Assembly (NCBI GenBank): GCA_003598975.1 | Contig: QZIJ01000135.1 | Location: 1-59,956 of the forward strand | Origin: Anaerolineaceae bacterium | GTDB lineage: Bacteria > Chloroflexota > Anaerolineae > Anaerolineales > Villigracilaceae | Direction of reading: 5' to 3' | Length of the DNA: 59,956 bases | In this document: positions 54,759-59,956 of the stretch, piece after piece | Numbering within the stretch: position 1 is the first letter of the stretch | How the letters are laid out: every line of letters starts with the position of its first letter | Notes under the pieces: generated by a model | Seen by the model: only the letters and a program-made list of their open reading frames with translations | Told to the model about the DNA's origin: nothing | The model's database searches: none | Position numbers and translations under genes: made by a program

Positions 54759-55358
54759 ATGAAGAACATTTCCCTCCTGAAACGGATGGGCTGGATGCTG
54801 TTGGTGATCTCCATCCAGTTCATCTACTTCCCCACCAGCCAGGCCACCAGCGGCGGGATCGCGCCCAAACTGCCGATTGACGTGATTCCCGTATATCCCA
54901 TCTGGGTGGTGCCGTATTTTCTTTGCTATCCACTTTGGCTGTTCGGCATCATCTGGGCGCTTCTCAAATTGGAAGACCGCGACTTCCGCGCCTTTACCGC
55001 CGCGGCGCTGTTCACGCTGGGCATCGGCAACCTGACGTTCTTTTTTTTCCCAACCTACGTTGACCTGCCCTTCATCACAGGGGACGACTTTTTTTCGGAG
55101 ATTTTGCGCGCCATTCAGATCGCGGGCGGGACTCACGCCGCGCTCCCCAGCGCGCACAATTTCATCACCATGCTGATGATGGCTTCCGCGATCCACCTCT
55201 ACCCGCGCCGGCGCTGGCTGTGGATCGGGATTTTGGTGACAGTCGCCCTCTCGACGTTGTTCACGGGACAGCACTACATCCTCGACGTGGTGGCGGGTCT
55301 CGCGCTTGGCTGGCTGGGATTCCGCTTCGGATTGTGGTGGGTGGAGAGGAAAAATTAG
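54759..55358 (+). CDS. PAP2-superfamily membrane phosphatase
   Basis: A 199-residue integral membrane protein with about six helices. The active-site motifs are the second PAP2 motif PSAH in HAALPSAHNF and the third motif STLFTGQHYILDVVAG. Motif 1 (K-x6-R-P) is not clear. The N-terminal LPIDVIPVYPIWVVPYF resembles the inositol-phosphorylceramide synthase-like branch. Likely role: removing or exchanging a phosphate on a lipid or isoprenoid. ATG 54759 is used, since the GTG at 54741 lies in the promoter area. The YczE-like gene follows 4 nt later. Confidence 0.85.
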   Translation: MKNISLLKRMGWMLLVISIQFIYFPTSQATSGGIAPKLPIDVIPVYPIWVVPYFLCYPLWLFGIIWALLKLEDRDFRAFTAAALFTLGIGNLTFFFFPTYVDLPFITGDDFFSEILRAIQIAGGTHAALPSAHNFITMLMMASAIHLYPRRRWLWIGILVTVALSTLFTGQHYILDVVAGLALGWLGFRFGLWWVERKN

Positions 55359-55362
55359 CGAC

Positions 55363-56004
55363 ATGTTCAAACCCATTCGTTGGAAAACTTTTCCGAAAGA
55401 TTTTATCCGCATCCAAATCGGATTCTTCCTCTTCGGCTTGGCCATCACGTTGATGATCCGCGGCAACATCGGGACGAGCGCCTGGGCGGTGCTCGATGTG
55501 GCGCTCTCCAAAATTACGGGCCTCTCGGTCGGGACATTGACCGTGCTGGTCGGGTTTGCTGTCCTTTCGGGCGCGCTGATTCTGCGCGAGCCCATCGGCT
55601 GGGGGACGCTGGCGAACATCCTGTCCATCGGGCCGTGGGAGGATTTCTGGCTCGCACGAATCCCGTCCGTGACGGATAACCTGTCCCTGCAAATCGCGAT
55701 GCTGTTGACGGCCATCGCGCTGATGGGACTCGCCTCCGCCATCTACATCGGCGTGGAGGCGGGTGCGGGTCCGCGCGACAGCATGATGCTGGCAATCAAG
55801 CGGACAACGGGAGTCAGCATCCGCGCCGCGCGCGGCGCCATCGAAGTGACCGTCGTCACGGTGGGTTGGCTGTTGGGAGGTCCCGCAGGAATCGGGACGC
55901 TCGTCTTCGCGCTGCTGATAGGGCCTTCGGTGCAATTGGGATTCAAGTTGTTGAAAGTGGAACCGCACAAGCCCGTGGAGATCGCGGCGGTGGTGGAGGA
56001 TTGA
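55363..56004 (+). CDS. YczE/YyaS/YitT-family membrane protein
   Basis: A 213-residue membrane protein with five or six helices. FLFGLAITLMIRGNIGTSAWAVLDVALSKITGL is the typical start of YczE-like proteins (about 22-54), and the second half has AIYIGVEAGAGPRDSMMLAI followed by GGPAGIGTLVFALLIGP. Family members are putative transporters or regulators of antibiotic synthesis, mostly uncharacterised. It is 4 nt downstream of the PAP2 gene and so shares its transcript. ATG 55363 starts the family consensus; upstream codons overlap the PAP2 gene. Confidence 0.87.
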   Translation: MFKPIRWKTFPKDFIRIQIGFFLFGLAITLMIRGNIGTSAWAVLDVALSKITGLSVGTLTVLVGFAVLSGALILREPIGWGTLANILSIGPWEDFWLARIPSVTDNLSLQIAMLLTAIALMGLASAIYIGVEAGAGPRDSMMLAIKRTTGVSIRAARGAIEVTVVTVGWLLGGPAGIGTLVFALLIGPSVQLGFKLLKVEPHKPVEIAAVVED

Positions 56005-56081: not shown

Positions 56082-59000
56082 ATGCCATCAGAACCGCAAA
56101 AAAAGCATGAAATCCATATAGACGGAAACGTCACGAACAGCAGTATCATCATCGGGGACGAGAATGCTGTTTCATCGTCAACTGCTGGCGGGAATCTGTC
56201 AACGGAACATTCCACCGCCGCGCAAACATCTGGGAGGGTGAACATGCCATTGCTGCGCTTGACACAGAAAATCGAAAAAGAAGATACATATCGAATCGAA
56301 ATGGCGTTCGAGGACGACGGTTCGCGTCAAACTGCGGAGGCGCTTTTCGATTTCAAGGTGACGCCCGAAGATCGTGCGGATTTGCGTTGGTACATGGAGG
56401 ATTACCTTCAATACCCTCTTGACCCTGCTCCTGAAATTGCCAGACGCATCGAAAAACGAATGAAGGAACTTGGCGGCGAGTTATTCAAATTAATTTTCAA
56501 AAACGAGAAGGCCTCCCGACTATGGGCCAAGATCGAAGACAAGTTAGATGATACGCGTGTCGAAATCGTGACCGATGTAAAAGGGGCGGTTGCACTTCCG
56601 TGGGAACTTTTACGTGATCCTGAAACTGATGCTGAAATCGCTCTGCGTGCCAGCGCGTTTGTGCGCGCTCATCATTCTGCGTCCCGCAAAGCCGAGCAGC
56701 CCCAGCCCGCGGACAAGGTGCGGATTCTGCTGGTGATCTGCCGCCCAGGCGGAGGGGACGATGTGCCGTTCCGTTCGGTGTCGGGACATCTGCTCAAAGG
56801 GCTCACCGACGCGGCGCGCGAGCATTTTGAATTGGACGTGCTGAGACCGCCGACGTTCGAGCAGTTGAGCAAGACCCTGCGAAACGCGAAAACAGCGGGC
56901 AAGCCGTATCACGTGGTTCATTTTGACGGGCACGGCGGCTACCTCAACACGGACACGGACAAACCTGCCGCGTGGCTGCGTTCCTTGATCCCCCTCATGT
57001 TGAGCGGACCGCGCGACGGCTCGCATGGCTATCTCTTCTTCGAACATCCCAAGCCCGACGGCGACAACGAAAACACCCAACTGGTGGATGGTCCCGCGCT
57101 GGGCAGGTTGCTGGCGGAGACCGATACGCCCGTGCTCATCCTGAATGCCTGCCGTTCGGCGCACGCGGAATTCCAGGAGAAGCCCGACGTGCAAAAGGAA
57201 GTGGACGAGACGCATTCGCAGGTGCGGGCGTTCGGTTCGCTGGCGCAGGAGGTGATGAACGAAGGCGTGGCGGGCGTGGTGGCGATGCGCTACAACGTCT
57301 ACGTGGTGACCGCGGCGCAGTTCGTGGCGGATTTGTACGCCGCGCTGGCAAGCGGGCAGGGACTCGGCGAAGCCGTGAGCATGGGACGCAAGCAACTTGC
57401 CGCCCAGCCGCTGCGCGAGATCGCCTTCGACCCGATCGCGTTGCAGGATTGGTCGGTGCCAGTGGCGTACGAAGCCGCGCCCATCCAATTGTTCCAAAAA
57501 ATATCGGGCACGGGGACCGTGCCCCTACGGATAGACGTGTCGAAAAAAGTCGGCGCGGTGGACAACCTCCCGCGTCCCGACGTCGGGTTTTTCGGACGCG
57601 ACGAGACCATCCTGGCGCTCGACCGCGCCTTCGATTCGCAGTCGGTGGTGTTGTTGCATGCCTACGCGGGCAGTGGCAAGACGATGACCGCCGCCGAGTT
57701 CGCGCGCTGGTACGCAGGGACGGGCGGGTTGCGCGGTCCGATCCTGTTCACGTCGTTCGAGCAATACAGACCGCTGGCGCAGGTGCTATCCGCCGTGGAG
57801 GAGACGTACCGCCCCCTGCTCGAAGCGAACAACATCCAATGGCTGGCGTTGAGCGATGACGACCGCCTGAACGTCGCCATGCAAATCTTCCAGCAGATTC
57901 CCCCGCTGTGGATCTGGGACAACATCGAGCCGATCCACGGATTCCCCTCGGGCGCGGACTCGGCCTGGAGCGAGGCCGAACAGCGCGAGTTGCGTTCCTT
58001 CCTGCAGATCGTGACGGGGCAGACCAAGACCAAATTCCTGCTGACCTCGCGCCGCGACGAACGCGACTGGCTGGGCGACATCCCCAAACGCGTGAGCCTG
58101 CCGCCCATGCCGATGCAGGAGCGCGTCCAGTTGACGCGTGCCCTGGCTGATAAGCATGGCAGGAAACTCACCGCCGTGAAGGATTGGCTTCCGCTCCTGC
58201 GCTTTACGCAAGGCAACCCGTTGACCATCACCGTCATCGCGGGACAGGCTTTGCGCGACGGCATCACCACGCCAGAACAGATTCAAGCCTACCTGAACAA
58301 ACTGCATACAGGCGAAAAAGCCTTCGAGGACGAAGCGGGCGAAGGACGCTCGAAATCGCTCGGCGCGTCGCTCAGTTACGGCTTCGAGCATGGCTTTTCT
58401 GATGAAGAACGCAAGGTACTGGCACTTTTATATTTCTTTCAGGGTTTTGTCTTTGAAGGTACGTTGAGAATGATGGGCGGAGAGGAATATGACTGGAGTA
58501 TATTAGAGCCACGTCAATTCGATTCAAAGAAAATGACCGCACTCTTGGATAGTGCATCCGAAATTGGCTTGTTGATTCCTCATGGCGATGGCCGTTACAC
58601 CATCCATCCTGCCTTACCGTGGTTTTTTCATTCCCTGTTCGAGCAATATTACTCTCCGCTACAAAATTTTGGAGAGGGAGCGGGAATGAGAGCACTCCGC
58701 GCCTTTGTCGAGGCTATGGGTAAAACTGGTGATTATTGCCATGACCAATATGGATTTGGCGAAATCAATCTTGTTTCGCTTTTACAACTCCATCTATCTA
58801 ATTTGCTTTACGCTCGTTCTGTAGCACGTCAATATGATTGGTGGAACGCCCTTACCAGTATTATGCAAGGGCTAAATATGTTTTATTATCATACAGGCGG
58901 TCGTCTTGAATGGAAGCGATTAGTTGAAGAAATCATCCCCGACTTTTTTGATGAAAACGGTGTTCCGCTACCCGATCGTGGTGATGAGTGGCTGATAGTC

Positions 59001-59870
59001 ACAGACTATGTTGTGTTTCTTGCTATCGAAGAACGGAATTGGGAAAAAGCAAAGGAATTCGAGCAAAGACGGTTAGAGTGGAATACATACCATCATAATG
59101 ATCTTTTGACTCGAGCTGTCGAAACGCTGAGCTCCGAAGAAAAGAATTCTTTACGGTCGTTAGGCATTTCGCTTGGTTTTATGGGTGAAATCCAGCGTGA
59201 GCTTGGTGAAGCAGATTGTGTTGAATATTATCAAAGGGCAATCGCGATACTGGAACTGATAGGGGATAATGCCGTTGTCTCTAAATATTCGTTTAATATC
59301 GGCCTCAGCTACATAAATCTCCCATCTATTCGCGACCTGAATACTGCGGAAAAATGGTTTTCCCGAAGTTTAGATTCTAGTCCAACAGATGACAATCGTG
59401 GGCAAAGCAAGACATTGTCTGCGCTTGGATCAGTTTCACATGAACGATTCAATGAAGCTCGAGAAAAAAACGCTTCCAAAGAGGAGCTTATTGGGTATCT
59501 CAACACTGCTGGAGATTATCACCATCAGGCCCTTGCTACCTGCCCCTCTACCGCTATTACCGAATTATCTGAGATACATACCAATATTGCACATATATAT
59601 TTTGAATTAGATGCTTTTGATATTGCCTTAAAACATGTAAACCAAAGCATCTACTTCTGTGAAATCGGCAATGATTTGTATAATGCAGGTAATGCTCGCT
59701 TCAACGTGGCTTCAATTCTAAAAAGCGCTCACCGTTATTCTCACGCGCTGCTGTACGCCAAGTCCGCGCTGCGGAATTTCGAGATCTATCAGGGGCGGGC
59801 GAAGGATATGGAAGATCAAACCAAGTATTTGATTGGTGAGATTGAAAAGTTGATGAAGGAGAGACCCTAA
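56082..59870 (+). CDS. CHAT-protease / STAND NTPase / TPR protein (NLR-like)
   Basis: A 1262-residue multidomain protein. The N-terminus carries the motif IDGNVTNSSIIIGDENAV (residues 13-30), followed by a linker. A caspase-like CHAT domain (about 80-470) has catalytic His284 in VHFDGHGG and Cys357 in ILNACRSA. A STAND/NB-ARC-like ATPase (about 495-775) has Walker A AYAGSGKT with Lys533, Walker B WIWDNIE with Asp613, and TSRRDE. The C-terminal half has a winged-helix-like region (about 775-870) and helical TPR-like repeats (about 870-1255). The layout matches NLR-like sensors in which sensing by the repeats releases a protease, as in bacterial defence or cell-death systems. No partner substrate (such as a gasdermin) is seen nearby. 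Codons about 775-1225 are far more AT-rich than the rest. The stop lies inside an inverted repeat that runs to the window end. Confidence 0.9.
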   Translation: MPSEPQKKHEIHIDGNVTNSSIIIGDENAVSSSTAGGNLSTEHSTAAQTSGRVNMPLLRLTQKIEKEDTYRIEMAFEDDGSRQTAEALFDFKVTPEDRADLRWYMEDYLQYPLDPAPEIARRIEKRMKELGGELFKLIFKNEKASRLWAKIEDKLDDTRVEIVTDVKGAVALPWELLRDPETDAEIALRASAFVRAHHSASRKAEQPQPADKVRILLVICRPGGGDDVPFRSVSGHLLKGLTDAAREHFELDVLRPPTFEQLSKTLRNAKTAGKPYHVVHFDGHGGYLNTDTDKPAAWLRSLIPLMLSGPRDGSHGYLFFEHPKPDGDNENTQLVDGPALGRLLAETDTPVLILNACRSAHAEFQEKPDVQKEVDETHSQVRAFGSLAQEVMNEGVAGVVAMRYNVYVVTAAQFVADLYAALASGQGLGEAVSMGRKQLAAQPLREIAFDPIALQDWSVPVAYEAAPIQLFQKISGTGTVPLRIDVSKKVGAVDNLPRPDVGFFGRDETILALDRAFDSQSVVLLHAYAGSGKTMTAAEFARWYAGTGGLRGPILFTSFEQYRPLAQVLSAVEETYRPLLEANNIQWLALSDDDRLNVAMQIFQQIPPLWIWDNIEPIHGFPSGADSAWSEAEQRELRSFLQIVTGQTKTKFLLTSRRDERDWLGDIPKRVSLPPMPMQERVQLTRALADKHGRKLTAVKDWLPLLRFTQGNPLTITVIAGQALRDGITTPEQIQAYLNKLHTGEKAFEDEAGEGRSKSLGASLSYGFEHGFSDEERKVLALLYFFQGFVFEGTLRMMGGEEYDWSILEPRQFDSKKMTALLDSASEIGLLIPHGDGRYTIHPALPWFFHSLFEQYYSPLQNFGEGAGMRALRAFVEAMGKTGDYCHDQYGFGEINLVSLLQLHLSNLLYARSVARQYDWWNALTSIMQGLNMFYYHTGGRLEWKRLVEEIIPDFFDENGVPLPDRGDEWLIVTDYVVFLAIEERNWEKAKEFEQRRLEWNTYHHNDLLTRAVETLSSEEKNSLRSLGISLGFMGEIQRELGEADCVEYYQRAIAILELIGDNAVVSKYSFNIGLSYINLPSIRDLNTAEKWFSRSLDSSPTDDNRGQSKTLSALGSVSHERFNEAREKNASKEELIGYLNTAGDYHHQALATCPSTAITELSEIHTNIAHIYFELDAFDIALKHVNQSIYFCEIGNDLYNAGNARFNVASILKSAHRYSHALLYAKSALRNFEIYQGRAKDMEDQTKYLIGEIEKLMKERP
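57506..57528 (+). repeat. hairpin plus CTAC, in frame in the CHAT gene
   Basis: GGGCACGG/CCGTGCCC (57506-57513 with 57517-57524) has a 3-nt loop and is followed by CTAC, so GTGCCCCTAC resembles the right end of the element at 20500-20552. It encodes the inter-domain linker SGTGTVPL between CHAT and the ATPase. Confidence 0.5.
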
Positions 59871-59956
59871 AGGTTTCTTTCGTTAACCTTCGTCACGTTT
59901 GGCAAGAGAGTCTTGCATATCAAGGCAACTGATTGTCGGGAAAACCTTTAGGGTCT
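59862..59956. repeat. 95-bp element with perfect 15-bp terminal inverted repeats
   Basis: AGACCCTAAAGGTTT (59862-59876) and its exact complement (59942-59956) are separated by 65 bp of apparently non-coding DNA. The TAA in the left arm is the stop codon of the CHAT-STAND gene. The right arm ends exactly at the window edge, so it could extend. Confidence 0.8.

Follow-up and report, generated by a model that had tools for sequence, protein, structure and literature searches.

The window considered here is a stretch of 59,956 nucleotides from an Anaerolineaceae bacterium of the Chloroflexota (GenBank assembly GCA_003598975.1, contig QZIJ01000135.1, positions 1 to 59,956 of the forward strand), and near its 3' end it carries a gene whose product joins a caspase-like CHAT domain, a P-loop STAND module and TPR repeats in one chain. 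A preliminary description, made from the letters of the sequence, had proposed this protein as an orphan sensor of immunity or cell death with the layout of an NLR. The gene and its parts are as follows; relatives are cited by our working numbers for loci (L), genomes (G) and contigs (C).

56082..59870, + strand: CHAT-STAND-TPR gene, 1262 residues, no internal stop (list of open reading frames, Pfam)
56103..56180, + strand: N-terminal short motif KHEIHIDGNVTNSSIIIGDENAVSSS, residues 8-33, BASS-like (profile searches)
56244..56246, + strand: Met55, alternative start (N-termini of relatives; GGGAGG just 5', by eye)
56526..57455, + strand: CHAT caspase-like domain, residues 149-458 (Pfam E 7.7e-15)
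56931..56933, + strand: His284, putative catalytic dyad (sequence; conserved in 67/67 rows, which are seed-biased, and in 8/8)
57150..57152, + strand: Cys357, putative catalytic dyad (sequence; conserved in 66/67 rows)
57588..57938, + strand: P-loop NTPase of the STAND module, with K533 and D613 (AAA_16 E 2e-6, below cut-off)
58443..58460, + strand: hinge, residues 788-793 (change points in five close pairs)
58450..59740, + strand: sensor block, apparently exchanged (GC 0.42 vs 0.60 in 56244-58450)
59568..59783, + strand: TPR_12 match, residues 1163-1234 (Pfam E 2.2e-10, above cut-off)

Pfam recovers the CHAT domain (PF12770) with 55.5 bits against a curated cut-off of 24 and, at residues 503-619, AAA_16 with 28.8 bits against a cut-off of 32.6; two relatives, L027 (NB-ARC) and L078 (NACHT), exceed the Pfam cut-offs for their STAND module. 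The P-loop domain, with Walker A AYAGSGKT and Walker B WIWDN, lies between the effector and the repeats, so that the chain reads in the order effector, STAND module and C-terminal variable sensor. H284 stands in HFDGHG (from 280), C357 in LNACRSA (from 354), K533 in AYAGSGKT (from 527) and D613 in WIWDN (from 610). The three-part chain of 1262 residues and these four positions had been named correctly in the preliminary description, and the profile searches found both CHAT and the P-loop, the absence of which it had regarded as speaking against its proposal. Its NLR-like layout, the build of plant and animal immune receptors, is supported by the domain order and by the variation of the sensor described below. 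Other libraries yielded less. PADLOC matched SAVED_CHAT weakly (E 7.3e-5) and ZorC (E 0.0082), and no Avs model was among its matches at E <= 0.1, Avs models being, as we presume, part of that library. The NCBIfam model FxSxx_TPR (NF040586) reached 24 bits against a cut-off of 300, over residues 497-545 only; PHROGs gave no match at E 0.001, and phmmer against the PDB gave eight weak matches, the best of which (E 0.0026) was to TPR-type proteins. No DNA-binding domain is among the Pfam matches of the protein.

The N-terminus of the protein may be shorter than the open reading frame. The first residue of 36 of 66 relatives aligns at positions 45-75 and that of the other 30 earlier, a comparison affected by the relatives' reading frames having been taken from the first start codon. 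A plausible ribosome site was seen by eye at both candidate starts, and the true start may be Met55 (56244), in which case the protein would lack a 54-residue extension.

Scanning genome contigs yielded 518 stretches with 497 relatives among them; the analysis went on with the 80 best (79 loci). Across 67 aligned full-length rows, C357 is present in 66, and K533, D613 and E616 in all. The residues H280, F281, D282 and H284 are likewise found in 67/67 rows, but most of these rows come from scans seeded on a peptide that contained the CHAT His motif, and the conservation of the His in them is thus not evidence. The same four residues are invariant in an 8-row alignment built from whole-protein searches (two own-genome proteins, one family-level and one order-level relative, and four from plasmid records), in which H284, C357, K533 and D613 are present in 8/8 rows. 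Mean identity to the window protein over the 67 rows is 50% for CHAT and 54% for the NTPase vs 30% for the TPR block, and CHAT has a dN/dS of 0.14 against L039, indicating purifying selection. The own genome encodes a second CHAT-STAND-TPR protein of 1370 aa at about 25% identity (L028:9529-13641, G000:C21), which has no match to the profile of the N-terminal motif.

The family is patchily distributed. Some match at E 0.001 occurs in 15/61 genomes (the own genome and 60 relatives); full-length close homologues among them are confined to the own genome and G021, and G031 holds a degraded copy without about residues 371-862 (L026, G031:C113). No close homologue was found in the 7 genus mates, with G007 alone giving a weak match (E 2e-4), and matches at E <= 1e-60 were obtained in 2 of 301 genomes of the phylum, own included. 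The 67-row tree intermingles phyla, three Methanothrix rows among them; its support is SH-aLRT only, rows from metagenome bins may be misassigned, and the program itself warns that such a tree is no proof of transfer. Within it, the window protein clusters with the Anaerolineales rows L039 and L040 and next with L098, both forks having a support of 100. Relatives are also carried by plasmids and by an IMG/VR contig; viral contigs gave no close relatives in a first scan with the single window protein and two in a later scan with an alignment. Taken together, the sequences suggest a patchy family that has probably spread horizontally across phyla. Three cyanobacterial plasmids (L033, L037, L038) carry an annotated integrase less than 1 kb 5' of the CHAT gene, L033 and L038 being close copies of each other.

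Directly upstream lies the following gene.

55306..56004, + strand: membrane protein gene, no Pfam match at E 0.001 (cluster kept in genus mates)

This membrane protein, which we take to be YitT/YczE-like, is encoded in 6/8 genomes of the genus, own included. In the stretches fetched from five mates (G001, G003, G004, G006 and G007), the window DNA that aligns is all or part of the RlmI/GNAT/PAP2/membrane-protein cluster, and the CHAT gene has no aligned counterpart. As the cluster is present in genus mates and the CHAT gene is not, the CHAT-STAND-TPR gene is, judged from these alignments, accessory. The contig of L040 also carries GNAT and the membrane protein, and L098, which shares its contig with L025, lies near RlmI; the position of the gene may be one that is used repeatedly, or one occupied long ago with later losses. 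The preliminary description had held that orthologues in strictly housekeeping contexts would count against its proposal; the accessory nature of the gene goes the other way, while in relatives many neighbours are metabolic and defence genes few.

The sensor of the window protein appears, on the evidence of its DNA, to have been replaced by recombination at a fixed point. The lowest 1200-bp GC value of the window falls inside 58450-59740, and the drop in GC at third codon positions in the sensor (-0.43) is the largest of the 67 rows (median -0.08). Up to gene position 2369 (codon 790) the DNA is 80% identical to that of L039; beyond it the identity is lost except for an 87-bp piece, before the alignment resumes for 117 bp at the gene end. 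Third positions, counted only at codons encoding the same residue, agree with L039 at 325/465 (0.70) in residues 201-785 vs 61/162 (0.38) in 801-1200 (Fisher p 9e-13), and recover to 23/33 in residues 1205-1260 (Fisher p 9e-4); the corresponding values against L040 are 258/409, 52/157 and 23/32. Such a synonymous drop is predicted by recombinational replacement of the sensor, not by protein constraint alone. A second low stretch against L039 lies at about codons 81-200. The donor of the sensor was not found, the best sensor match remaining L039 at 45%.

The same signature recurs in other members of the family. A protein change point at 788-793 together with a synonymous drop at p<0.001 was found in five of 17 close pairs (window/L039, L111/L114, L049/L052, L063/L067 and L059/L074), with support intervals of the change points from 786-791 to 716-795; the pairs were picked from rows with high core identity, so that 5/17 is not a rate. 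L101/L105 represents a weaker case (change point 778, p 0.002). In L111/L114, which share one Nostocales locus, protein identity falls from 96% to 47% at residue 788, and DNA blocks that are 84-95% identical flank a gap spanning the gene end and about 1.4 kb beyond. A palindrome in the linker, GGCACGGGGACCGTGCCCCTACG, was considered as an inserted repeat and rejected, since L039 aligns through the linker ungapped and L040 with a two-residue gap, and the genome holds only two copies (<=2 mismatches). In Asanoa hainanensis, two CHAT-STAND-TPR genes stand in tandem (L055), with an identity of 85% in the core and 63% in the sensor.

At the other end of the protein, the extra 54 residues contain KHEIHIDGNVTNSSIIIGDENAV. 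Used as a query, it gave three further own-genome matches at E 0.5 to 1, namely a TIR protein (C46), a P-loop and TPR protein with sub-threshold NB-ARC (C47) and a NACHT-FGE protein (C128), and a profile from these four copies found the motif in 21/61 genomes at E 0.05. Because this profile included the window copy, two checks were made with profiles lacking it, both of whose instance sets had been gathered with the first profile. The profile of 37 instances matched the window motif at E 1.4e-4, and nothing else among the 19,990 reading-frame segments taken from the window and 95 loci scored below E 5; the best value for shuffled segments was 5.0. The profile of 17 instances, all from other genomes, matched the window motif at E 6.1e-6 and found six own-genome places at E <= 1, all in conflict-type proteins: C47, C66 (TCAD2), the window protein, C128 (NACHT-FGE), C66 (NACHT-FGE, 0.028) and C84 (NACHT-HEAT, 0.061). 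It missed the TIR copy on C46, which counts against a sharply defined motif.

Among the 43 motif carriers scanned of 45 listed, matches at E 0.01 were to AAA_16 (20), NACHT (15), TCAD2 (10), NB-ARC (7), TIR_2 (6) and CHAT (2), counts in which one protein may have several matches and which cover the carriers alone, without a matched control set. The other CHAT carrier, L163 from G019, is likewise a CHAT-STAND-TPR protein. From its sequence, the motif resembles bacterial amyloid signalling motifs (BASS). In the small carriers L148, L149 and L145 it lies towards the C-terminus, after an N-terminal part of about 100 residues, a layout as described for BELL proteins, and our guess is that they are BELL proteins. 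A BASS at the N-terminus of an NLR would have its counterpart in an effector-type protein of a neighbouring gene. In the window protein the motif is N-terminal and common to other conflict proteins of the genome, all of them on contigs other than that of the CHAT gene; none adjoins it upstream, and the downstream side is off the contig. On C66 (L156), a small TCAD2 protein adjoins a NACHT-FGE protein, and each carries the motif in its usual or a variant form (also in L158 and L159); in G010 and G036 small and large motif carriers are likewise close together.

Only 86 bp of contig follow the CHAT stop codon, and the statement of the preliminary description that nothing recognisable is adjacent therefore holds upstream only. 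Its corollary, that the substrate is either the protein itself or unlinked, is not established, as the assembly lacks the downstream side and candidate partners are linked to the gene in some relatives. Clustering of 1008 neighbouring open reading frames, followed by profile searches, gave two candidate partner families, whose counts among 64 core loci are lower bounds since many of the loci are short contigs. Family A (220 aa) stands beside the CHAT gene in at least 5/64 loci (upstream in L039 and L086; downstream in L044, L076 and L081, the L076 copy being split between frames) and family B (310 aa) downstream in at least 6/64 (L047, L051, L057, L079, L082 and L100). Four members of the two families had no Pfam match at E 0.1, and the own genome (84% complete) gave no match to either family. 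Family A is also encoded in L176 and L177, where the flanks fetched contain no CHAT gene, and it was rejected on both counts as the partner of the window gene. Family B was rejected for want of a match in the own genome; G031 carries it on contig C62, apart from its CHAT remnant on C113. In 12 cyanobacterial loci, a protein of about 140 aa, hydrophobic in its C-terminal part as read by eye, is encoded 27 to 3842 bp downstream of the CHAT gene. The L074 CHAT gene overlaps a SIR2_2 gene, and L118, on the IMG/VR contig, stands beside integrase and type I restriction genes (about half of the contig covered).

The contig end itself carries a repeat.

59862..59956, strand not assigned: inverted-repeat element of about 95 bp, one arm of which includes the stop TAA (contig end; related genome copies)

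Its inverted ends are AGACCCTAAAGGTTT, and its 17-mer (<=1 mismatch) occurs 15 times in the genome and 0 times in the control. Related copies on C73 (L215, G000:C73) surround a small open reading frame between type I restriction genes, presumably REP-associated and transposase-like, with no Pfam match at E 1e-4.

What the analysis supports is the domain content, the conserved catalytic and P-loop residues, the patchy distribution, the signature of sensor exchange and the sharing of the motif. From these features we favour, with moderate confidence, an NLR-like conflict sensor with protease output. The TIR, nucleoside phosphorylase and cyclase fusions at the N-terminus of relatives, and L118 with its integrase and type I restriction neighbours, agree with this reading. 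The C-terminal TPR block would bind a trigger, which may be a foreign protein such as one from a phage; the STAND P-loop module, by what is known of its family, would next exchange nucleotide and oligomerise; and oligomerisation would join the CHAT domains, whose Cys-His protease would cut a target and harm or kill the cell. The N-terminal motif of the window copy would probably recruit unlinked proteins with the same motif by homotypic stacking. Defence or cell death is the predicted outcome of the whole. Sensor exchange would fit a protein engaged in an arms race.

Several observations weigh against this account. Cys357 is replaced by Arg in one row (L043), and the CHAT core is 19 residues short in the G021 relative (L025:5167-8928), which is placed between an open reading frame that we take to be nucleotidyltransferase-like and, farther away, one that is presumably BrnT-like. 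In 12 of the 17 close pairs the two signs of exchange at the hinge are not combined, the sensor being faster without a clear synonymous drop or the change point lying elsewhere; in L033/L038 the C-terminal side is more conserved, the opposite direction, and in L111/L114 the upstream DNA block extends to the equivalent of residue 879, beyond the protein change point at 788. The motif was not found in the other 95 loci scanned. As for the neighbourhoods, 133 proteins were scanned (130 from 185 candidates, likely spurious reading frames being dropped by eye, and three from L118 added by hand); PADLOC matches were scattered and few concerned defence, the type I restriction matches being the three hand-added L118 proteins, and the Pfam families, among the matches listed, were largely metabolic. 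There is hence no general defence-island signal, and a defence-island context was rejected as support. The immune or cell-death role of the preliminary description accordingly stands in part: the accessory character of the gene and a probable part in conflict have support, without such a signal among the neighbours of its relatives.

The same features may be read in other ways. Self/non-self recognition (kin discrimination or allorecognition), as by fungal het NLRs, would have the sensors exchanged as strain labels. The L111/L114 exchange, between close relatives that share a locus, would suit it, and so would the rows from Nostoc, Anaerolineales and Methanothrix, lineages with filamentous members; however, relatives occur on plasmids and in an IMG/VR contig, and no surface or contact component was seen among the neighbours inspected, and we consider this unlikely. 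Alternatively, the protein may be a regulatory STAND protein with a CHAT domain that would process some host factor during development or under stress, a likeness to MalT/AfsR or HetF that we presume. That CHAT is named after HetF (PMC12881547, in excerpt), that many neighbour genes are metabolic and that four Nostocales rows have one chromosomal locus in common would agree with such a role, whereas the lack of a close homologue in the 7 genus mates and of any at E 1e-60 in 299/301 phylum genomes, the exchange of sensors and the Pfam matches without a DNA-binding domain make it quite improbable. That CHAT is mainly a scaffold, with output from N-terminal modules such as the TIR (L027), PNP_UDP_1 (L040) and Guanylate_cyc (L070) fusions of relatives or from partners bearing the motif of the window copy, would accommodate the row without the catalytic Cys, but with Cys357 kept in the remaining 66 rows and CHAT under purifying selection it is just as improbable.

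The NLR-like conflict sensor may belong to something larger. Motif-sharing receptors of one cell, unlinked in the genome (CHAT-STAND-TPR, NACHT-FGE, NACHT-HEAT, STAND-TPR and TIR), and a TCAD2 protein could form an NLR network around a common homotypic hub, perhaps amyloid, built by the motif of about 22 residues, with the CHAT sensor renewed at the hinge; this is a tentative proposal, and we regard it as rather doubtful. If sensor exchange is true, nature would offer a series of receptors that keep the core constant and differ by a sensor substituted at one and the same position, even within a single chromosomal locus, and the target of each sensor would be accessible by sensor swaps on one core. 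The shared motif, if true, would give an orphan receptor candidate unlinked partners that gene-neighbourhood methods miss.

Parts of this picture are already in print, and the sources are cited here from excerpts. Fungal CHAT-domain NLRs control gasdermins (PMC12881547), and BASS have been reported with CHAT and TIR proteins (PMC7889193), so that the term undescribed system, used in the preliminary description, is too strong. Models of BASS (PMC8086366, PMC12261475, PMC9815663) as well as STAND systems and adapter domains (PMC10907252, PMC7159879, PMC8195603) have also been described. In the excerpts compared, we met no account of fixed-hinge sensor exchange, of the partner genes or of this motif; a literature search on CHAT-STAND and CHAT-NLR names returned unrelated papers only, which is no proof that nothing is in print. 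Csx29, the TPR-CHAT protein of type III-E CRISPR (Craspase), likewise joins a CHAT protease to TPRs, whereas the window protein has a STAND module between the two; the window reading frames that were read showed no CRISPR partner, with no profile or array search made and the downstream side off the contig. Avs proteins recognise phage terminase or portal. As in the Avs/bNACHT anti-phage STAND proteins (PMC10907252), effector, STAND module and variable repeat sensor stand in one chain, but the effector of the window protein is CHAT, and PADLOC gave SAVED_CHAT and ZorC only. The EAD principle (PMC7159879, PMC8195603) likewise rests on a small module repeated in several conflict proteins and thought to be homotypic, whereas the module of the window protein measures about 22 residues and is a motif that the excerpts of these two papers do not mention. 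BASS/BELL signalosomes (PMC7889193, PMC8086366) also have a short motif at the NLR N-terminus; in the own genome the motif proteins lie on other contigs than the CHAT gene, and the likeness is one of sequence. The fungal CHAT NLRs (PMC12881547) likewise combine a CHAT protease, an NLR switch and superstructure-forming repeats such as TPR, whereas the window protein is prokaryotic and the candidate partner families had no Pfam match in the four members scanned, gasdermins not having been searched for. The network of motif-sharing receptors, if true, would be a bacterial counterpart of helper/sensor NLR networks.

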